Of a stretch of 64,000 nucleotides of DNA, positions 5,410-60,000 are shown piece by piece (position 1 is the stretch's first letter; every line of letters starts with the position of its first letter). A program made the position numbers and the translations under genes. The notes under the pieces are model-generated. The model searched no databases. It was not told the origin of the DNA and saw only the letters and a program-made list of their open reading frames with translations. The stretch is from Apostichopus japonicus (Eukaryota; Echinodermata; Holothuroidea; Aspidochirotida; Stichopodidae). The stretch covers positions 9,893,013 through 9,957,012 of the forward strand of contig NC_092577.1 in NCBI RefSeq assembly GCF_037975245.1, written 5' to 3'.

Positions 5410-5911
5410 AGTGTACATGTTGTGCGTCAATGAATGTCTCGAACGACTTCACACTGTTAATTCCCTGATGTCGCACATTGAAAAAAAATTGTCTTAAAAA
5501 TTAGGATTGAAGGGAGGGATTGCTGTGTGAGTCATTGCATGTATTATGAGCATCTCCATGGTAACCCTGCCTCTCAATCAATATGTATAGTCATTTAAAT
5601 TTTCTGTGCGTTTGTTACCGACCTGTCGGTAGCGTAGAGAGTGCCTGTACCGATTACTCAGATAATGGAAAGTGGGATCAAAATTTCATCTCATTGTGAA
5701 TTTTTTACACCATCCCCATGGTGATGCGTGCAATTTTACATTTTGATGTTTGTATTTGTTTTTGTAACAATATTTGGAACATTTCAATAAACAAGCTACC
5801 GACAACGACAATTGAAGTGTTCTGTTTGTAAGGATTTTCTTCCATTCCTGTTTCCGATTAGGACAGAATGGTCATTGTCGAGTGACACGGATGTGAGAAG
5901 GTAGCTTAGGG
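5410..5911. other. No gene recognised; possible transcript end inside
   Basis: Unique-looking AT-rich DNA between the TIR element and the 25-bp minisatellite. No reading frame stands out. Confidence 0.5.
5786..5830 (+). terminator. Possible polyadenylation signal
   Basis: AATAAA at 5786-5791 is followed, about 25 to 40 bases on, by a GT-rich stretch (GTGTTCTGTTTGT), the usual layout of an animal poly(A) site. No coding exon upstream supports it, so this is a guess about a transcript end on the plus strand. Confidence 0.3.
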
Positions 5912-6850
5912 ATTGGGGGTCCTGTGTAGCTATGGTATTGGGGGTCCTGTGTAGCTATGGTATTGTGGGTCCTTTGTAGCTATGGTATCGGGGGTCCTGT
6001 GTAGCTGTGGTATTGTGGGTCCTGTGTAGCCATGGTATTTGGGGTCCTGTGTAGCTTTGGTATTTGAGGTCCTGTGTAGCTATGGTATTTGGGGTCCTGT
6101 GTAGCTATTGTATTGGGGGTCCTGTGTAGCTATGGTATTGGGGGTCCTGTGTAGCTATGGTATTGTGTGTCCTGTGTAGCTATGGTATTGGGGGTCCTGT
6201 GTAGCTGTGGTATTGTGGGTCCTGTGTAGCTGTGGTATTGTGGGTCCTGTGTAGCTATGGTATTGGGGGTCCTGTGTAGCTATGGTATTGGGGGTCCTGT
6301 GTAGCTATGGTATTGTGGGTCCTGTGTAGCTATGGTATTGGGGGTCCTGTGTAGCTATGGTATTGTGGGTCCTGTGTAGCTATGGTATTGGGGGTCCTGT
6401 GTAGCTGTGGTATTGGGGGTCCTGTGTAGCTGTGGTATTGTGGGTCCTGTGTAGCTATGGTATTGGGGGTCCTGTGTAGCTATGGTATTGGGGGTCCTGT
6501 GTAGCTATGGTATTGGGGGTCCTGTGTAGCTATGGTATTGGGGGTCCTGTGTAGCTATTGTATTGGGGGTCCTGTGTAGCTATGGTATTGGGGGTCCTGT
6601 GTAGCTATGGTATTGGGGGTCCTGTGTAGCTATGGTATTGGGGGTCCTGTGTAGCTATGGTATTGGGGGTCCTGTGTAGCTATGGTATTGGGGGTCTTGT
6701 GTAGCTATGGTATTCGGGGTCCTGTGTAGCTATGGTATTGTGGGTCCTGTGTAGCTATGGTATTGGGGGTCCTGTGTAGCTATTGTATTGGGGGTCTTGT
6801 GTAGCTATGGTTTTGGGGGTCTTGTGTAGCTATGGTATTGGGAGTCCTGT
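5912..6850. repeat. 25-bp minisatellite, about 37 copies
   Basis: The unit is about 25 bp with core GGGGGTCCTGTGTAGCTATG followed by GTATT. Copies differ mainly at a few sites: GGGGG or TGTGGG before TCC, TATGG or TGTGG or TATTG after AGC. The array ends abruptly at 6850. Reading it gives no long open frame. Confidence 0.95.
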
Positions 6851-9800
6851 GAAAATACACATGATGTGGCACAGTGGACCTACAGTGGGGAACATTGAAA
6901 AGCCCAGTTCATAAGAGGGTTTACAAGAAAATTGTCTACAGGAAAAGTTGATTGGTGCACTGTGCTACTACCGTAGAAAATAGCTCATTCCATTTCTGAG
7001 ATGTACGGTATGAAAGAATACCCCTGCTTCCCTGTCCCCACACAGCAACAGCACTATTACTATGTAGAAGCACCAACTTGGGGGATAGTGCACAGACCTT
7101 ATTGGTATTCTGTGTAAAAGTCCCAATATTGAATCCACAAAAAGTAATATATTGGATACCCTGTACAAACATTTGCATGTCACTGAAAGTAACGGTTGAA
7201 TTTCTTATCATAAGCAGACTAGTTCTACGAAACACAGACCAAAATTGAACTGTCAATGATGTCATAAATGGAATCAAGACACTTTAACTATTTTCCCGGT
7301 AGCGTGCAGAAAAGAATAAAAAATTAAAGCAAACCAACCAACCAACGACCTGCTGTTGATTTCAAACCTTTGATTCCCAGGAAGCAATAAGTGTGTGTAC
7401 TTGATCTGTATTCACAAAAATATAATGTCAATCAAGGGACGAAATAGTTTTAGAGAATTGATTAGCAATAATTGCTCGACAATTCTTGGAAATAGCAATT
7501 AGCATTAGCAGGTACTGCATCTTTTGCTAATCAAAAGTAATATTGATTAGCAACTGGCAATTCTTGGGTAGCAAATTGCTATGCGAACCCAGTTATTTCC
7601 TTGTCAATACAGTACAGTTGATAATTAATGGGGATAATAGGCCTACCTGACAGCATCATTAGTGCCGATAAATTCTAAGCAGCTAGCTCGTTTTTTTGTG
7701 ATGATCTTTGTAAAATAGATTGATTTTTTTTCCTTTTTCTTGAGACAACTCACGAGCCGCAAAAAAATCACTGACTGGCCGCATGTGGCCTGCGGGCCGT
7801 AGGTTGCCCACCCCAGGCTCATAGATATGGAAGAGGAAAGCATGCCATATAGACCTACATACACAAGCCTTCAATTCTCAGTCATTACTTGGACGGTTAA
7901 GTAATTTTGATAAGTAATGACTGCCCAGATTTGATGTATAGAAAGGAAACATTTAAAGAAGATCTATGCCTCACATTGTAACGAAATCATTACGTAAATG
8001 GATAATTGAGGTTAATTGCATGAGAGTCAATTTGTCCCTTTTTTTATTTTTTATTAATTAATTAATTTATAACTACAGTAGCAGAACATTGGAGAAAAGT
8101 TATCAACCACAAAGACATTCTCAGAATAATTTAATCTCTTGAGATACAAGTGAGTGGAAACAATTTGTGAATTGATCGGAGGTTATAAAAAAAATTTTTT
8201 TACTTCATGTCAGCAATTTGTCAGACGTATTATGTAGGGACAAGTGACCCCTTTTCTTTTAAAAAAAAAAGAAGGGATTTGGATGCCACATGGCGGGCGC
8301 CATCTCATGATTTTCAACCCTCTCTCGTCACAGGACCGGTCAAGGTCTAAATCCAGGGGATTGCAATCATGAAAACAAACAGGTAATTTATTATTATTCC
8401 TCCTCCTTTCTGTGAAAACATTTTGTCCAAGCATGCACCTGAAAATAACCATTTTGGTGTATGTAACCTGGTGATGGGCTTTTATACATTGGCGTTCAAG
8501 AGGGGCAAGTGAATGAATGGTCCCATGTCTCTCACTTGTGTGTGTGTTAATCATACTGAGTAAACAAACTTGTGCCAAATTTTTCCCAAAATTTTGAGTA
8601 TCAAAAGTGACATAATTCCTTCAAGACAAAGGAGAACATTTTTTTCTTGTTTGCTTCGGAAAAAAAGATTTTCCAAAATTTGACAATGGCACCATCGTCC
8701 AATCCCACTACTCTTTGTCTGTGTCCAGTTTACATTACCTTCCTCCCCCCACCTGCCCACCCCCCCCCCCTCCAAGCTTTCTTGTACGCCTCTGGTTCTA
8801 TGTGCACCATATATTAACCACAACAAAATGATAAAGTGCCTAAATTTCTTTTTGCCTGTCACTCATGCTATTAACACATGTTAAGAACAATATCTTAGAG
8901 ACAACTTAGATAGATGCCTATGACTCATGTCTGCAATTAGTACTCTATCAGTATCAAAAGTCAGATCTTGTAAGAATGTCTTCAAGCGAACAGCAGCGAA
9001 CATCAGATGTAGTGAGATCCTTTGAGATATGTCTGTCGTTCACCGTACGACCATGCATTCCATTCCAAGTAATTGGTGGGAACATTAAGCATCATACAGT
9101 TTAGAATTGCTCTTGATTGTACTTAACATACTTGAAGGAACCTGCATGCAAAGAATTTAGCAAAATGCAGGGTAATAAGGATTGTCAAGTCTTTAAGTGG
9201 TGATTGGTTTTGCCCCTAAATAATAGTCGCTCTTTCTTCTCAATCTTAACGAGCATTTTACTTCCATCCATCGTATCATTTTTGCTCCTACGAAAAAACA
9301 GCTTATTTTCATACGTTACAAAATTCTGAAATGTTTCATAATGCAATTTGGGCATCCAGGAAAACTACTTCCAGAAACTCTCTAGCAAGTTTCAGCATGC
9401 TAAAGTTGGGCACATTACTAAGGAACCGTGACAGCTTGAGCAGAAAAAGCTTCAGTCCTAACGATGGAATAAACAAAGCATTCATTAATTATTAAGAGGC
9501 TTGCAAAAGCAGCTAGCTTGCATTTCATCGCTAATTTACATTCATTTTTTTACCGCAAAAAATTTGAGCAAAAGTGCAACTGAATTACCTCACAAGAAAA
9601 ATTATCGCAGCTTTTCTGTGTCATGCAAAGATTGCCAATTGGGTTAATGAATTACGATTCCATTCAGTTTTGGATAATATTTGTCACCAGGATACTTCTA
9701 TGATTTGTATTAGAAATTAATCACAACCTACTGTACTTTGCCCATTGGAACGAACGAAAAGACCAAATTACAAACACGTTTTACTTGATACTTTGGACGG

Positions 9801-11689: not shown

Positions 11690-12990
11690 TGAGTACAATA
11701 GTGTGGGTCTGAGTACAAGTAGAATTCCAGTGGCGTGAGTACAAGAATGGGAGTACAAGGTAATAAGCATGAGCAAGAGATAATTTAGCACTAGTATCTG
11801 TACGAGATTCCAAGAAATATGTTTGGAGTACGAGATCAATTCCAGGAGGTTGAGTACAAATCCAGGAGTGTTGAGTACAAATCCAGGAGCAATGAGTACA
11901 AATCCAGGAGTGTTGAGTACAAGAAGGGGAGTACAAGGTAATAAGCATGAGCAAGAGTACTGTGATGATTTAGCACAGTTAGTATCTGTACTAGATTCCA
12001 AGAAACATGTTTGGAGTACGAGATCAATTCCAGGAGTGTTGAGTACAATTCCAGGAGTGTTGAGTACAAAGCCAGGAGTGTTGAGTACAAATCCAGGAAT
12101 GTTGAGTACAAATCCAGGAGTGTTGAGTACAAATCCAGGAGTGTTGAGTACAAATCCAGGAGTGTTGAGTACAAATCCAGGAGGTTGAGTACAGATCCAG
12201 GAGTGTTGAGTACAAATCCAGGAGTGTTGAGTACAAATCCAGGAATGTTGAGTAAAAATCCAGGAGTGTTAAGTACAAATCCAGGAGTGTTGAGTACAGA
12301 TCCAGGAGGTTGAGTACAGATCCAGGAGTGTTGAGTACAGATCCAGGAGTGTTGAGTACAAATCCACGAGTGTTGAGTACAAATCCAGGAGTGTTGAATA
12401 CAAATCCACGAGTGTTGAGTACAAATCCAGGAGTGTTGAGTACAAATCCAGGAGTGTTGCGTACAAATCCAGGAGTGTTGAGTACAAATCCAGGAGTGTT
12501 GAGTACAAATCCAGGAGAATGAGTACAGATCCAGGAGTGTTGAGTACAAATCCACGAGTGTTGAGTACAAATCCAGGAGAATGAGTACAAATCCAGGAGT
12601 GTTGAGTACAAATCCAGGAGTGTTGAGTACAAATCCAGGAGAGTTGAGTACAAATTCAGGAGTGTTGAGTACAAATCCAGGAGTGTTGACTACAAATCCA
12701 CGAGTGTTGAGTACAAATCCAGGAGTGTTGAGTACAAATCCAGGAGTGTTGCGTACAAATCCAGGAGTGTTGAGTACAAATCCAGGAGTGTTGAGTACAA
12801 ATCCAGGAGAATGAGTACAGATCCAGGAGTGTTGAGTACAAATCCACGAGTGTTGAGTACAAATCCAGGAGAATGAGTACAAATCCAGGAGTGTTGAGTA
12901 CAAATCCAGGAGTGTTGAGTACAAATCCAGGAGAGTTGAGTACAAATTCAGGAGTGTTGAGTACAAATCCAGGAGTAGGAGTACAACTAC
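11690..12990. repeat. 21-bp minisatellite with higher-order structure
   Basis: The unit is 21 bp, GAGTACAAATCCAGGAGT plus GTT, about 50 copies or more. Because 21 is a multiple of three, several frames stay open on both strands (7-residue repeats such as STNPGVL on plus and LYSTLLD on minus), which explains the apparent 386-residue frame at 11836-12996. A block starting near 12519 recurs about 292 bp later at 12811, including its variants (AATGAG, CCACGAG, GAGAGTTGAG, AATTCAGG), showing a recent multi-unit duplication. The left end (11690-12040) is also duplicated: GGAGTACGAGATCAATTCCA and GGTAATAAGCATGAGCAAGA each occur twice. Confidence 0.95.
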
Positions 12991-22154: not shown

Positions 22155-25100
22155 CTGCGGGAATCAAAACGAACAAGTGTCGTCAAATAGTAGGCCGCAT
22201 TGAACTTGTCGCAGACTGAAGGCAGCATACTCCATCGCTAGAGGTACATTAACGTTCTTGCAAACGTCTGTTACTTTGGTCTACCAAATACCACAACAGG
22301 AGTGTTAAAACTCAGGGGTGGTATAGAGCCGAGGTGCACCATGGCCCCAGCCTCTCCTCCACCCCCCCCCCCACCAACCTCATCACACCTCAATCCACTG
22401 AAAAACCTGAAAATTGTCACCTTTCATAAACTACAAGTACCTATTTTTTTTTTATTTGAAAGCAGCCTTTCACCCACTATAGTAAATGAAATAAAAAGTA
22501 TTGTTTAAAAAGTGCCTTTCATTTTCATCATTAAAAAGTGTCCTTTTGTTGAAAACAAAAAAACACTCAAATATTTGAAATTAAGGGTACAGAATGTACA
22601 GAGGGCTCATATTCTGGGGAAAATTCTTGGGGTCAATTCATTGCCTTGTCACCTCAGGTAAAAATTCACATGTCCCGCTGCCCCTCGAGGTTCGTCTGTA
22701 GTATTTTCGCATCGAAATTTTAGCTGCTTCGAGCAAGAGAGTGGATAAAAAAAATTGAAAAAGCATGGATAATTGCAAAACAACAAACCTGATTGAAGAT
22801 CTCACCTGCATTAGCTGGTATTCCCAACACGTGTCCTAACGATATCAACAGAGGGAACGTGATGGCTATCCCAAAGTTGACTAGAAAGTTAAACACTGTA
22901 CGGTAAAGAGAGAGAAAAGAGCACACTTGAAGGTAACATGTAATACTAATGCACAATCCTACGTTTACCTACTTACACTTCCCCCAACCCCTTTAATGTT
23001 TGGCTTGTTCGTAGCAATGGAACAAAAAATTTTGGGGGGGGGGCACCGACATTCAAGACGTAATACCTCAAAATACCCAGGCCACATAAAAAAACGTTTT
23101 GTTAACCTCCTCATCAAAGCAAGGATGGAAAAGTAATCTAGCGACCATCACTAAATTTGCCAATTTGACTCACCTACGATAAGAGCGGAACTTCCACAGA
23201 GGAAACCCCAGGGAATTACATCCCACGACTCCTCTCCTGTGTAATACAGGGCTAGCAGAACAGGCCACAGAGAAACCAAATCCAGAAAGCCCAGCACAGA
23301 TAAGAAGAGAGAGACTTGGCCGAGGGAGGCGTCCCCAATGACTCGTTTGAAGACCACCTGAGAGAGGAATGTTAGGTAATTATGCCGTCGGAGTGGAGTG
23401 GATAAAAAAGGCAGTGCCACTACAAAGTAAAAGACACCTAGAATTGCGAGCACCTGGTCTGTTAAAGGATAGTTTTCTATCCGGGAGAAAATCTTTGTTC
23501 CCCCCCATATCTGAAATGATCTCCGATGCCAATTGTACAACACAAAATACAAAATGAGGTATAGAAAAAATGTAAATTGGAAGCCACTCCAAGTGAAGGG
23601 TAGGTTATATTAAGCTGATTTGGCTTCTCTCACACACACATGTATGTTGCTCGTTAGCGTCGTAAAAAAAACTGATATTTAGAGCACCCAGAGCTGTTAA
23701 TCAAGGCAAACCAAAGACATTGTCTGAGAGGTCATAATGGAGGCCTCGTTGCCTGAGACCCAACAATGTCTGCACGAGCCCGAAGTCAACAGATCCTGAC
23801 TACTATGCAAGAATATGATATGCAGAAACATGATTTTTTTTTTTTTTTTTTTTTCTATTAGTTTTGATTTGTCTTTGATAACATGCATGATTGAAGCTTG
23901 TCTTATCCTGATCAATTACCATTGTTTTGAGTAATTTTTTTTTTTATCTTCCAAAAGAAATAGTTGCTGAGATTGGAGTCGACGTTAGTGGGCGACTTGT
24001 AAGGAATCTGACGTCCGTACTCGCTCTGTACTCATTTACTCACTCTCTAATTTACTCATTCTCATGGATTTGGTCTCATACTCTAGGCATGTTGTAGTAC
24101 TAGTAGCTATGCTAGAGCAAAATTAACTACGCGTATTTTAGAGCGTTGTACACTCATAACTCACACCAAGTCAAGTTTTGATCGCACTGTTCGTGATCCT
24201 AAAAAGACTTGAATACCAATTTGCATTGAAATTTGGCAAATTCTTTTATGACATTTATATGTAAAAATTTCAAACCATATAAAATTCTTATTTTTGGAGA
24301 ACTTATTTTGTAATTCGATAACTAACCAATATCCAGACAAGAGTTTTTGACAAAAGTTGATGCCATCTCCCTGAGGGTAACATACCTTGTAAATGGCAGA
24401 ACCAGTGGCAGCTAAAAGGGGTAGTATGATGGCACCGACTATTCGGTTACCGGCTTCAAATCCCTCCGAGTAGGACACCAGGACTGTGCCGGTCATGGAT
24501 AAGATGACTGATAATACCTGTGAACATCAGAAAGAGAAATTAGAAGCAAATCATAAAAAGGGAGGGGAGGGGGGGCCATAAAATGACTGATAATACCTGC
24601 GAACAACAGAAAGAGTAATTAGAAGCAAATAATAAAAGGGGAGGGGAAGGGGGGCCATAAAATGACTGATAACACCTGAGAACATCAAAAAAAGAAATTA
24701 GAAGCAAATAATAAAAGGGGAGGGGAGGGGGGCCATAAAATGACTGATAACACCTGAGAACATCAAAAAAAGAAATTAGAAGCAAATAATAAAAGGGGAG
24801 GGGAGGGGGGCCATAAAATGACTGATAATACCTGCGAACATCAGAAAGAGAAATTAAAAGCAAATAATAAAAGGGGAGGGGAGGGGAGGGGAGGGGGGGC
24901 CACTAAATGACTGATCATACCTGTGAAGATCAGAAAGAGAAATTAGAAGCAAATGATACTTAGACTTGATCAAGTCTTCAACCTTTTGTGCCAAGGATCA
25001 TGAAATCTGTCAAAATGGACTCACATATATCTATAGACTAATAACGATGGCTGGGTTTGTGTCTCCTGGCTGGGGTAATATGAAATGTGGGGTGGGATGG

Positions 25101-28100
25101 GTGGGGGGTGGGCGGGATGGAGGGGAGGGTTGGTCATGAGTTATCTCTATCAGACAGACCAACAATGATGGTTGGGGTTGTGTCTCTTGGCTGGGGTGAG
25201 GTGTGGTGTGGGGAGGGGGAGGGGCAAGTTGTTCATGACAGTTCTATCAGACAGACTAATAATGATGGTTGGGTTAGTGTCTCCTATAAAGGAGCATTCG
25301 CAGCATTTTCACATATTATAAAGGTGGTCATCTTGACGACCAGAATAGCTACAGAAACATTGCTAGCATACAAGGTTTCAAGTTCTTCTTCTGTGGAACG
25401 ATACTCATCGACATTAAGTTTTTAGGCTTAAGTCTTCCGCTAAAGAAGTGAAAAACTTGAGTTTTGAGATTTGTGAGACAAAAAAAAACGGCCAAAATTT
25501 ATGAAGAGTGCAGACCTTTGACGGAATCTGAGCCACGACCTCCGTCAGAAGAATCCAGGATAGGACGTAAACGACGACTGTATTGGTCACAAACAATGTC
25601 GTCACCACCGTGGCACTCGTGATCCCCAGGGCTCGGACGAAGACATAGTTGGTCAGCATCCACAGGACCAAGAATGGTCCTGTCACCTTGATAGCGGTCA
25701 GCAAGGTCAGCCCTCTCTCTCCGTATACCCGTTGATCCTCACTACAGAAACACAAGAGAAAGCCAATAAAGATGCAGCCGATGAATGAGCCTCACTACTG
25801 AATGATCTTGCACTTATCACGGTGGATCTGCATACTAAGTATAATATTCATCCCGGCTTTACTTTTGATATTAACACGTGCAAAAAAAATTCTTCAGACT
25901 TTGACCTTTGACCTCCACCACTTTCATCAGAGTTCTTGTACTCAATGAGGTGGACCTATCTAGAAGTTCATCTAGGGTTTACAGAACTTTGCAGTTATTG
26001 TGTTTTACCAATGTTTTCAGACTTTGACCTTTGACCTCCACCACTTTCATCAGAGTTCTTGTAATCAATGAGGTGGACCTATCTAGAAGTTCATCTAGGG
26101 TTTACAGAACTTTGCAGTTATCGTGTTTTACCAATGATTTCAGACTTTGACCTTTGACCTCCACCACTTTCATCAGTTCTTGGAATCAATGAGGTGGACA
26201 TATCTAGAAGTTCATCTAGGGTTTACAGAGCTTTGCAGTTATTGTGTTTTACCAATGTTTTCAAACTTTGTTCTATATGTTGACTTCAAATGACCTTTGA
26301 CCTTCCCAATTTTATTCGGGTCCTTGCACTCACCGTGTGGATTTACATATTAAGTACGAAGTTTACTTCTTTTGCAGTTATCGACTTTACACAACTCTTT
26401 CAGGCTTGGACCTCTTTTGACCTGAAGTGGCCTTTGACCTCCACCAATTTCAATAGGATTTCTTTGTTCACCAAATGGGGTCTATAGACCAAGTGTGAAC
26501 TTCAGCCAGGTTTCACTTAGTGAGTAATATGAAATTCATTCACTTGTGGGTTTTATAGTGTTTACTCGCCAAGACATCGCACACAAACACACACATCACC
26601 AGAGCATGGATTCTGTTTGACTTCAGCAAGCAACTTCAAAAAAATAATAAATAGGAATTATGCTGATTTTGCATTACGTAGCAAAAAACAGAAATGAGGA
26701 TGTCTAATCTTACTATAAGAGAGGAAATCTCATAGTTAATTTGATAGATAAATATATAACTTTACTCCAAAAATGTGTCCTTTTTCCATTTACGACTAAT
26801 AATTACAACATTTTTTTCTTTTTTTCCCCATTTTTTTTTCTTTTTTTTTCTTTCACTCTTTTTTCACTTTTCACTTTCACTTTTTCTTTTTCACTTTTTC
26901 ACTTTCTTTTTCACTTTTCACTTTTAACTCACACAGTTTTTTTTCTTTCACTCTTATATTGCTCTACTTGATTTTATAGTACCTACTCATAGATGTTTCT
27001 GATTCCACGCTTCCTTCGCTCGGGAAATACAAGGACGGTTATAACGACGTACAGAGGATAGCACGCCATCATCCAACTCGTCGAGAACCACATGTTGAAG
27101 AACGGACCGTTAAAACTCGGAGAGTACGTGCTCTGCGTGAACTGTGTAGCCGCGACGAATGAGAGGCAGACCCCTAGACCGAAGAAGGCTCCCACCAGAC
27201 CGCTTCGAACGCTACCGGTTTGTTCTTCGTCAGGTCCGATTGGGCTTTCGGAATCCTTCTCCATGTCTGCAACGAGAAAACAGAAGGGTCATTCCATATA
27301 GATTCACCAAATTTTGGAGTATGTTGTAGTTCGAAATCTTTTTAAAATATTGAATATTTTGACACTTTTTAAGTTGACCTAACTCCACAAGACAATGCTT
27401 TTGTAGCCTAATTTTTTATATTCCTGTTCTATGGGATAGACTCTATAGGCATTTGTAATAGAACGGTAGTAGGATGTTTATTTCCTGAGAAATGAGACCT
27501 CAAAAGTCAAGAAAATGCCAAAATGCCATGGTGGCGACAAATTGCGGAATTTCAAAGTGTGATAAATCGGCCAATTGTGAAGCAATGCAACTGAAATTTT
27601 CAGAATATGCTAATTGCATGGTGTTCCAAACATACTATCAGAAACATCAGAAAACTACAACAGAAAAGGGTTTAAAATAACCTCTATGCCACTCCTTGCT
27701 TAAGTTGCTAGCAGGCTCAATGTTTACCATATTCATTACAATCCTCACATTATATGTCAAAACATAACTGTATATCTTCATGTCTCAAGATTCTACTTTT
27801 TCATCACTGAAAAGAGACTTTTGTAAATTATATAAGAAGGAATTGTTTCACTATTTAAAATTGATTCAATTACATACAAATTTATCATCTTTATTGTTTA
27901 GAACCTTTTAGGCCATTTATATCAATGATCTGTTTATGGTCAACAGTTTTCAAGTCAATTGCAAGGAGTTTTTTATGTAGTTTTCAGTTTGTGTGAAAGT
28001 AGGTTGGCCTGACGTTTCGATCCTAGCAGGATCTTCTTCAAAGGCTAAATGACAAGTAACAGAAGGGACAAAAACACGCACAGAATACAGACAGGTTCAT

Positions 28101-35681: not shown

Positions 35682-40816
<5,135 letters not shown>

Positions 40817-48921: not shown

Positions 48922-49106
<185 letters not shown>

Positions 49107-55194: not shown

Positions 55195-56035
55195 CAACTA
55201 GCTGAACTTGACAGTAACCAGCAGAGATAACTTTAATAACCAGCTGAACTTGACAGTAACCAGCTAAGGAACAGTAATCAACAGCTGAACTTGACTGTAA
55301 CCAGTTGAGGTGACAGCAATGAGCAGCTGAACTTGACAGTAACCAGCTGAGGTAACTGTAATCACTAGCTGAACTTGACAGTAACCAGTTGAGGTAACAG
55401 CAATCAGCAGCTGAACTTGACAGTAACCAGCTGAGGTAACAGCAATCAGCAGCTGAACTTGACAGTAACCAGCTGAGGTAACTGTAATCAATAGCTGAAC
55501 TTGACAGTAACCAGCTGAAGTCATTGTTATCGCCAGCTGAACTTGACAGTAACCAGCTGAGGTAACTGTAATCACTAGCTGAACTTGACAGTAACCAGTT
55601 GAGGTAACAGCAATCAGCAGCTGAACTTGACAGTAACCAGCTGAGGTAACTGTAATCACTAGCTGAACTTGACAGTAACCAGCTGAGGTAACAGCAATCA
55701 GCAGCTGAACTTGACAGTAACCAGCTGAGGTAACTGTAATCAATAGCTGAACTTGACAGTAACCAGCTGAAGTCATTGTTATCGCCAGCTGAACTTGACA
55801 GTAACCAGCTGAGGTAATTGTTATCACCAGATGAACTTACCAGTAATCACCTGAGGTAACTATTATCACCAGCTGAACTTGACAATAACCAGCTGAGGTA
55901 ATTGTTATCACCAGCTGAACTTGACAGTAATCAGCTAAGGAACAGTAATCAACAGCTGAACTTGACAGTAACCAGTTGAGGTACAGCAATCAGCAGCTGA
56001 ACTTGACAGTAACCAGCTGAGGTAACTGTAATCAA
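55195..56035. repeat. 42-bp minisatellite, about 20 copies
   Basis: The unit is 42 bp: AGCTGAACTTGACAGTAACC, then AGCTGAGGTAACTGTAATCA or AGCTGAGGTAACAGCAATCA, plus two bases. Longer blocks of several units are themselves repeated (the pattern with AAGTCATTGTTATCGCC occurs twice). As 42 is a multiple of three, a 187-residue minus frame of 14-residue repeats stays open (55264-55827). It lies 0.5 kb downstream of the Tribbles stop codon, so it may be in or near its 3' UTR. Confidence 0.95.
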
Positions 56036-57018: not shown

Positions 57019-60000
57019 CTGCAAGAGAAGAGGAAAAGAAAAAGAGCTGTAAAGTATTCCGCTGGACAATGTCGGTTTCTTGTAGACACTGTCTCACCAA
57101 GAGAACAGACAAATTTATACTAGATGCAATGATTAAGGCCTATGCACTGCACAGTCTCCAGGTATGTTCAACATGTTGGCATAGACACTTGTTTGAAATG
57201 TAGGATGCTGTGGAGGTTGCAGAAAAATATCCATTGTTATTTATTTTTATTGTTATAAATGATGACACTGCTCTTGCTGCAGCTTTTCTTTTCGACACGG
57301 CGGCGACCACCACACTTACGTTGGAAGCTGCACAGTACATCTGGTATTGCAGACACAGAACCGTTGTTATCTCCGTGCATACAAGCTCTTACACACAAAA
57401 TCCAAACCTGGGCAAAATGCATGTATACACACACCCACCCAAATGAGTACACTATTTCATGCTCTGCACACTGAGAGAGGCAAGGACTACAGTAGCCACT
57501 ACTGGAATGTATTTACTGTATAAGAATATAGGTGGTTACCGTGGGTGACTGAGTAAAGTGGATGCACCTGACAGAACAGACTGGGGTTCCATAACACAAC
57601 TGTAGAATTTTTTACAGTTTTATGCTAACTATACCCAAGAATACTTCAACATACTATATCATATTGTATAAATATATAGATATGCTTAATTTAACATTTT
57701 AAATACTGAATGATTCTGAGAATTTGTTGAATTCCTCATTTTGAGTAGATAAATGATTTAATACATTGGTTTACTGCGAAAGCGACAAAACATTATGATT
57801 TCTGAAATGGCAACTAAACGACCTTGTCCCTATACAGCTACAAAATGTCACTTTAGAACACTGTGGACAATATATTTTGAGACTTTCTAGTAGGATTGTA
57901 TTTTAATGATCAATGTTTATAACAGCCTCAGGGAATAAGATCTTTTTATGTGTTCAAACTTTATCTAGCAGTTTTGAAGGCTCTGACTTCGGTTTCTTAT
58001 AAAGTACTACGGTCCCTGTGTGAAAAATTGCGCAACACATTGTTTGGAGTTTCTAGCAACCAGACCATTTTGCATCTATAGCCTTTTTGCGATCAACATG
58101 TGATACCTGATAAATGAGTCCAGGCTGTGTATTATACAACCACTCAACCTCAACTCTGACAATATTCACTGTGCACAGAGCACTGCTCATCACTCTCATC
58201 ACTCCCTAGCTTGGTACATAACATGATATTACTGCTGATGTCCCCCTATAGAGCCCCAACAGGTGGATCCAACTTCGAGTAGTGCTGCACAGTTTATCAA
58301 TACACCACCTTATCAGCACAGAGCCAGCCTGTCTGTCAATACGATTGCAACAGCAAACAGACAGATCTCTTGCAACATTAGGGAAATCCCTGCCAGCAGT
58401 TTTCAAAGAGAAAGTAAGGCAGGCAAGAAAGGTTAATTGCAACATCTTTGGAAAATGCCCAGGGAGTATCAATTCCACATAACAATGAAGGTCAGGACTA
58501 ATCAGTACACAAGGGCAATACAGAAAGTCAAGAGACGCAACTTACAGTATGCTGCATTTATGTAGTACAGTATGGATACTGTATGTGCAGTACAGTTATA
58601 CTGTGCAAAGATGTACAGTACAGTATGTTTTACATGGTAAGGTATGGCACACTTTGTACTGTGAACAAGATGTACAGTATGTGCATGTTGTACACATGGT
58701 ACTGTATGGTACAGTATGTACTGTGAACAAGATGTACAGTACAGCATGTTGTATATAAGGTACTGTATGGTACAGTATGTACTGTGAACAAGATGTACAG
58801 TACAGCATGTTGTATATAAGGTACTGTATGGTACAGTATGTACTGTGAACAAGATGTACAGTACAGCATGTTGTATATATGGTACTGTATGGTACAGTAT
58901 GTACTGTGAACAAGATGTACAGTACAGCATGTTGTATATATGGTACTGTATGGCACAGTATGTACTGTGAACAAGATGTACAGTACAGCATGTTGTATAT
59001 ATGGTACTGTATGGTACAGTATGTACTGTGAACAAGATGTACAGTACAGCATGTTGTATATATGGTACTGTATGGCACAGTATGTACTGTGAACAAGATG
59101 TACAGTACAGTATGTTGTATATGATACTATATATGGTATACATGTATATGGTAGATGCATGTATTTACATACATGGTACTGTACAGTATGTACACTGTAG
59201 AGAGATATAAATGTATTTATGTATCCTACAGTTATATAAGGAACAGACCCATGCACCAGGAACATGGAAATTGCACCACAATTTAAGGGGAACTATGTTC
59301 TATTGTTGAGCCAGTATTCCCCGCACCAATCACTTGTTTGCTTGGCTCATGCTGACGTCAAACTAGTGCGAAAGCCCTTTATCAGTGCCTTTTGTTCACT
59401 CCAGCTTTGACCTTTGACCTGTTACCTTTTACGGAACCTGCCCTTTTCATACATCCAGATCCGTTAACGCTCAAAAAAGGGTTAGTACAGTAGACTTTTC
59501 GAATGCTTTCGAATTTCTGAATGAGAAAATTCCAGTAAAATATTCCCCTGGTTATGGCATAAAAATTACCCATAATTTCTTTTTTTAGAAGACTACAGTA
59601 TGTGAATGGGTAATTCAACTTTGTGTTCACAAGTGCTGAGAGATTATACAATGTAGACTGAACGCACAGAATTTGATTTTGCAAGTTTACACTCTGCCGG
59701 GAATGGATCGTTATTCCAACTGAGTAGCACCCCAATCTCCTCCCCCCCCCCCAACCCACTCCATCGGACACCCTGCCACCCCTCTACTGAAGAGAAATAA
59801 TGCTATATATATAGTTTCCAAAGTCAGTACCACACCCTAAATGAGATGGTTAATTCTGGTCACCGAGCGCAACAAACTCTTCACATCCCAAAGTCCGACT
59901 AGTTATCGGACTTTTCACCTCCTGAATTCAAAATTTCAGACCCAATAAAAATATACGACTATGTACTGGTTACTTACTGCTCTGGATTAGCGAAGACAAA

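Follow-up and report, generated by a model that had tools for sequence, protein, structure and literature searches.

A transporter gene with a repeated acceptor

The window, by which we mean the whole stretch of 64,000 nucleotides of Apostichopus japonicus DNA that was analysed, carries on its minus strand a gene of which six coding exons were recognised by eye, and whose product resembles drug/metabolite-type transporters of the SLC35F3/F4 kind. The SLC35F name follows from likeness to the human SLC35F3/F4 sequences; the profile PF06027 (SLC35F) scores 17.8 bits with three joined exons, under its cut-off of 21, and for a longer joined model the sole Pfam match is EamA, also under threshold (13.6 against a cut-off of 28.2). 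The third of the recognised exons, numbered exon 4 in the initial annotation, is separated from the preceding one by an intron of 998 nt (25515-24518), which carries the array described here.

25516-25741, minus strand: preceding exon, ending at 25516 with the weak donor AAG|GTCTGC, its upstream border placed by eye
24386-24517, minus strand: true exon of the SLC35F3/F4-like transporter gene, 132 nt, phase 0 at both ends, placed by its open frame and the donor AAG|GTATGT

The 132-nt exon is open from 24517 to the good donor at 24386, and its upstream edge can be compared with that of a paralog on contig C1 of the same genome, which shows 55% and 39% identity over two exons and shares 23 of 42 residues with the 132-nt exon. 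In the paralog, the preceding exon ends with AAG and the next one starts two codons before a conserved Ser-Val, as in the window, placing its exon 3/exon 4 border at the matching codon position and likewise in phase 0. Open frame, donor and paralog border together make the predicted edge of the 132-nt exon well supported. At this equivalent border of the paralog, neither Tandem Repeats Finder (TRF) nor self-comparison detected an array, and a single acceptor is seen, after which the exon starts with GG, not GT; since the border is shared and the array is not, the array is not needed for this gene structure.

In the window gene, the acceptor of the 132-nt exon is the last of six similar copies in the direction of transcription, the elements of which are as follows.

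24499-24958, minus strand: complete array with the 3' splice site in six tandem copies, from TRF and a repeat search
24504-24555, minus strand: core of the true acceptor, CACAG|GTATTA
24583-24634, minus strand: decoy acceptor 1, CGCAG|GTATTA, 79 nt upstream of the true site
24662-24713, minus strand: decoy acceptor 2, CTCAG|GTGTTA, 158 nt upstream of the true site
24740-24791, minus strand: decoy acceptor 3, core the same as decoy 2, 236 nt upstream of the true site
24818-24869, minus strand: decoy acceptor 4, CGCAG|GTATTA, 314 nt upstream of the true site
24907-24958, minus strand: decoy acceptor 5, CACAG|GTATGA, 403 nt upstream of the true site
24873-24899, plus strand: longest G-rich spacer, with a G-quadruplex pattern, C-rich in the transcript
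24560-24575, plus strand: shorter G-quadruplex pattern match in a spacer

TRF gives the array a period of 78, 5.7 copies, 89% matches and a score of 656, and the repeat search resolves six copies spaced by 79, 79, 78, 78 and 89 nt; given this score and the length of the unit, the repeat itself cannot be a product of chance. The initial annotation had described a unit that spans the intron/exon border, with five intact decoys upstream of the true site, and alignment of the six copies bears this out: each core comprises 52 nt, 38 intronic and 14 exonic, and includes a branch-point-like motif, a pyrimidine tract, the AG and 14 exon bases, so that the exon edge is part of the unit in every copy. 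The core of the true acceptor reads TATGATTTGCTTCTAATTTCTCTTTCTGATGTTCACAG|GTATTATCAGTCAT (minus strand), and the first exon-like base after the AG falls at 24517 (true), 24596, 24675, 24753, 24831 and 24920. The 14 exon bases GTATTATCAGTCAT recur exactly in two of the five decoys and with one base changed in the other three, while AG|GT is intact in all five, and hence at 6/6 points with the true site included, which makes each copy a possible donor as well. The motif CTAAT (TTAAT in decoy 4) lies at the same distance in every copy, indicating that the entire acceptor, and not the AG alone, has been repeated.

Pairwise identity of the six cores ranges from 87 to 100%. The inner decoys 2 and 3 show no difference over the 52-nt core, and for the inner decoys 1 and 4, identity to the remaining cores is 88-94%. 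Decoy 5, at one edge, is 87-94% identical to the others, and its nearest relative (94%) is the true site, which is the other edge copy. Between the cores lie spacers that are C-rich in the transcript, e.g. TTTATGGCCCCCCTCCCCTCCCCTTT, and no such C/G-rich tract occurs on either outer flank of the array, left of the first core or right of the last. Copying of a single uninterrupted stretch would leave spacer at one outer end and therefore does not account for the unit, for which a simple one-step duplication is insufficient. When the array was searched against its own genome (one assembly, with common words skipped), it matched at this locus only. Among the other repeats in the neighbourhood, three 123-bp tandem units with TTTGACCTTTGACCTCC lie at 25893-26270, upstream of the preceding exon (minus strand) and apparently intronic.

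Boundary-spanning arrays elsewhere in the genome

The window holds a second array at an exon boundary, on the donor side of an exon in an EF1A gene, an assignment that is taken from the identity of a neighbouring exon.

about 39488-39890, minus strand: second boundary array in the window, EF1A exon donor in four copies, last exon base 39883

The three downstream copies of this donor, at 39750, 39658 and 39546, all read CACAG|GT and score 8.56, 8.56 and 6.94 against 8.44 for the true donor on a matrix of human averages. The TRF interval of 39488-39798 stops short of the true donor at 39883, so the EF1A edge is counted by homology only. This array is the donor-side counterpart of the acceptor array in the SLC35F-like gene. 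The SLC35F-like paralog itself has an array further along (loci L077/L078, about C1:19288230-19288602), where the exon-5 donor is present in four copies, three of them downstream, with scores of 9.27-9.39 against 9.39 for the true site by the same human matrix. Its spacers are G-rich, and runs of at least three G number 27 in the array. No such richness is seen in the EF1A array, and G-runs are thus not required for boundary arrays.

Two further cases were seen among myosin exons. In one (L032), the donor together with about 75 nt of the exon end recurs a single time, 220 nt downstream. In the other (L011, 1729-2710; C4, about 23.98 Mb), units of about 53 bp give a row of 19 AG|GT points at intervals that are nearly always 51-54 bp, the first point being the exon's own apparent donor; the shared exon part amounts to only about 4-7 nt, making L011 a borderline boundary repeat. 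Two other candidates were rejected: at L063 a minisatellite with a 21-bp unit lies past the end of the exon, and at L038, which is no tandem array, the junction of a myosin exon end with its donor recurs as one dispersed copy on the upstream side of that exon (junction and copy at 1475-1522 and 1867-1922).

How often such coverage of an exon edge would arise by placement alone was estimated in two ways. Arrays cover 11.7% of the span of the two recognised window genes, for which 2.1 of 18 exon edges, as read by eye from the list of open reading frames, are expected to lie inside arrays; 2/18 do so by homology and 1/18 strictly within a TRF interval. At the array density of the window, an array that covers an exon edge is unremarkable. 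Other repeats in the window include minisatellites of 25 bp x 38 (5901-6851), 21 bp x 45.6 (12025-12976), 42 bp x 20 (55200-56034) and 61 bp x 8.8 (58590-59122), and a perfect ATC x 61.7 run at 48922-49106.

The wider survey sampled 64 loci with 128 match edges (30 of at least 70 myosin matches, 30 of at least 126 kinesin matches and 4 of at least 4 SLC35F matches), some of the loci overlapping or belonging to one gene. Under four settings, 3, 4, 3 and 1 of the 128 edges were flagged, against 8.4, 8.2, 6.8 and 5.4 expected from random pseudo-edges placed in the flanks of the surveyed loci, where the edges are those of profile matches, possibly off by several codons and in some matches read through stops. 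In the first run, 3/128 edges and 6.4% of pseudo-edges were flagged; loci were not oriented to the match strand, and the left and right labels do not correspond to 5' and 3'. The four edges ever flagged comprise two tandem boundary repeats (L032 and L011), one dispersed copy (L038) and one non-boundary repeat (L063). Targeting of duplication to splice sites was rejected on this basis: sampled edges are flagged less often than random intronic positions, which gives no sign of duplications seeking splice sites in the sample, and if anything exon edges are avoided. Mirages, as boundary-spanning minisatellites have been called in amphioxus, look like those outcomes of a general propensity for tandem duplication that are tolerated.

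The genome analysed has 671,581,487 bases in 35 contigs, one of which, C35, is a mitochondrial genome of 16,099 bases. Its codon pattern is that of the echinoderm mitochondrial code, and an amphioxus source, which the mirage literature had suggested at first, was rejected on this code and on the genome statistics; a search for the GFP family gave no match, but it gave none in 14 control genomes either and carries no weight. Compared with mammalian-type COX1 in the Protein Data Bank, AAA stands at Asn in 10/11 cases, AGA at Ser in 4/7, TGA at Trp in 14/14 and ATA at Ile in 12/23; the minus strand of C35 carries several tRNAs and an ND6-like frame. Mitochondrial-like sequence also occurs outside C35, in contig C29 (31,219 bases; L005-L007), where five pieces of COX1 lie on the minus strand.

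Choice among near-identical acceptors

The initial annotation had also proposed that use of a decoy would break the frame and that only the exon-proximal copy had been kept functional, and these two claims fared differently. When the frame of the preceding exon, which ends in phase 0, is carried on into each decoy, a stop follows after 1, 22, 22, 18 and 18 codons (farthest to nearest), in all five cases before the true exon, in agreement with the first claim. For the second there is no sign in the sequence. Scored with simple splice-site matrices that are human averages, the host being a sea cucumber, the true acceptor reaches 12.93 and the decoys, starting with the farthest, 14.25, 12.93, 14.23, 14.23 and 12.93; each of the six falls in the top 0.4% of the 3,512 minus-strand AGs of the window. 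Decay of the decoys is rejected, as none of them scores below the true acceptor, and in two of the five the six bases after the AG are the same as at the true site. Exon length alone is no bar either, since use of decoy 1 would give an exon of 211 nt. Masking of the decoys by RNA structure was rejected as well (the array folds less well than its shuffles, 95/100 of which are at least as stable; z = 1.61), and Rfam at gathering thresholds gave no match anywhere in the window.

Splice-site strength thus does not single out the true acceptor, and if the proximal site is used, it must be the exon context that chooses. The exon-proximal of duplicated splice sites is reportedly preferred (Reed and Maniatis, 1986). 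We regard it as likely that the array is an intronic minisatellite of the mirage type, which is spliced out as intron from an acceptor that is exon-proximal, and which is without function; no evidence of a function appeared in this analysis. Most likely it is a neutral by-product of tandem duplication, tolerated since the spliceosome takes the site nearest the exon. An early tandem duplication with C-rich filler would have copied a stretch across the intron/exon border or, alternatively, a spacer may have been lost later at one end before core and filler expanded; slippage or unequal exchange would then have amplified core and filler together until six cores were present. With splicing at the exon-proximal acceptor, which alone yields an intact 132-nt exon, the other five copies would have turned into intron, while any decoy-spliced transcripts, with their early stops, would be removed by nonsense-mediated decay. 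The same rule, by which the exon-proximal site wins, would also cover donor-side arrays. The identity of decoys 2 and 3 over 52 nt fits turnover within a tandem array, and so counts for this explanation, as do the array-free border of the paralog, the further boundary arrays in the genome, the edge counts in the window genes and the survey, and the undisturbed splicing reported for amphioxus. Against it count the failure of the matrix to single out the true acceptor and of any RNA structure to account for the choice, and the spacer missing at both outer ends counts against a simple one-step duplication.

The AG|GT present at 6/6 points raises the question of whether the array might instead serve as a ladder for recursive splicing, in which use of a decoy re-creates a donor, the next step leads to the following copy or to the true exon, and mis-splicing stays silent. 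A far decoy could act as the first ratchet point: on the human matrix, the farthest decoy, CAG|GTATGA, combines the top acceptor score (14.25) with a donor score of 8.19, in the top 1% of minus-strand GTs in the window, and joining the preceding exon to it would give a donor of 8.02 against 4.33 for the native AAG|GTCTGC. At the four remaining decoys and at the true exon, the same matrix gives re-created donors of only 3.83-3.95, leaving one strong donor in six; the paralog exon starts with GG and has no array; and the intron measures 998 nt, whereas Drosophila ratchet points lie in long introns (PMC8605326, from the accessible part of that paper). The Drosophila data given there are compatible with the exon-junction complex suppressing donors that splicing has re-created, an effect that, according to the same part of the paper, intronic ratchet points evade. 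The juxtaposed acceptor and donor AG|GT is common to both systems, unlike the short intron, the mostly weak re-created donors and the six near-identical copies in a row found here. The ladder, whether in its general form or with the far decoy as first ratchet point, is accordingly improbable, and a silent ratchet unlikely; slightly less probable again is a natural ladder from the weak preceding donor via the far decoy to a stronger donor, with silent steps thereafter, which would make splicing error-tolerant and not error-prone.

About as doubtful is a regulatory role, in which competition among acceptors would yield stop-containing transcripts and so lower expression via nonsense-mediated decay. 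The stops within 22 codons in all five decoys and their acceptor scores, not below that of the true site, would suit such a role, against which stand the paralog without an array and the consideration that intronic acceptors would mostly yield stops anyway. That the copy number was inflated or collapsed in assembly, an error to which tandem arrays are prone, is very improbable indeed: the genome analysed matches the published A. japonicus assembly, and that assembly (671.60 Mb in 34 scaffolds, with 23 chromosomes of 18.21-46.02 Mb) was, in the available text, built from PacBio HiFi reads with hifiasm (PMC10344927), reads that should easily span 460 bp, and the copies differ in bases and in spacing (89 versus 78-79), although the cores of decoys 2 and 3 show no difference.

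Relation to amphioxus mirages

The amphioxus precedent, together with the outer ends free of spacer and the donor potential of each copy, goes beyond the initial annotation. In the available parts of two papers (PMC3087553, PMC3902484), mirages are boundary-spanning minisatellites described in amphioxus Adh3 and globins (BflGb6 and BflGb9) and additionally in troponin C and PGBD5, with unit lengths of 10-72 bp in Adh3, about 150-160 bp in the globins and 60 and 108 bp in PGBD5. They lie on the 3' or 5' side, keep AG/GT in many but not all units and evolve in concert within a cluster; normal splicing is reported there to be undisturbed, and the structures were proposed as a route to new introns. 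Like these, the sea cucumber unit crosses an intron-exon boundary, the splice dinucleotides are kept in the intronic copies and the inner copies are homogenised. The amphioxus pattern of homogenised inner and diverged edge copies is present here, though not on a strict reading. Unlike them, the array has a C/G-rich spacer between its cores and at neither end, and its host is an echinoderm, whereas all mirages so named in the available parts of PMC3087553 and PMC3902484 come from cephalochordates. A cephalochordate host is a habit of occurrence and not a structural criterion of mirages. No echinoderm mirage was found in the literature searched, which consisted of open-licence papers, and as far as these searches show, echinoderms are a new host phylum for repeats of the mirage type.

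Related duplications are known from intron gain by tandem duplication (the Rogers AGGT model, ATP2A1 and potato RdRp), which shares with the present array a duplicated AGGT and 3' splice signals; in potato RdRp, according to the accessible portion of PMC4974935, a tandem duplication across an intron-exon boundary made a new intron, whereas the sea cucumber copies lie within an existing intron and no new intron is evident. Internal tandem repeats in human paralogs likewise change exon-intron structure, to judge from the title and the start of the abstract (PMC2812944).

The occurrence of acceptor-side and donor-side mirages at several genes of the sea cucumber suggests that such structures are not peculiar to lancelets. 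The array constitutes a natural test of how the spliceosome chooses among near-identical sites, where local signals are equal and context is different, and in a species with a HiFi assembly this choice is directly testable with RNA and population data.
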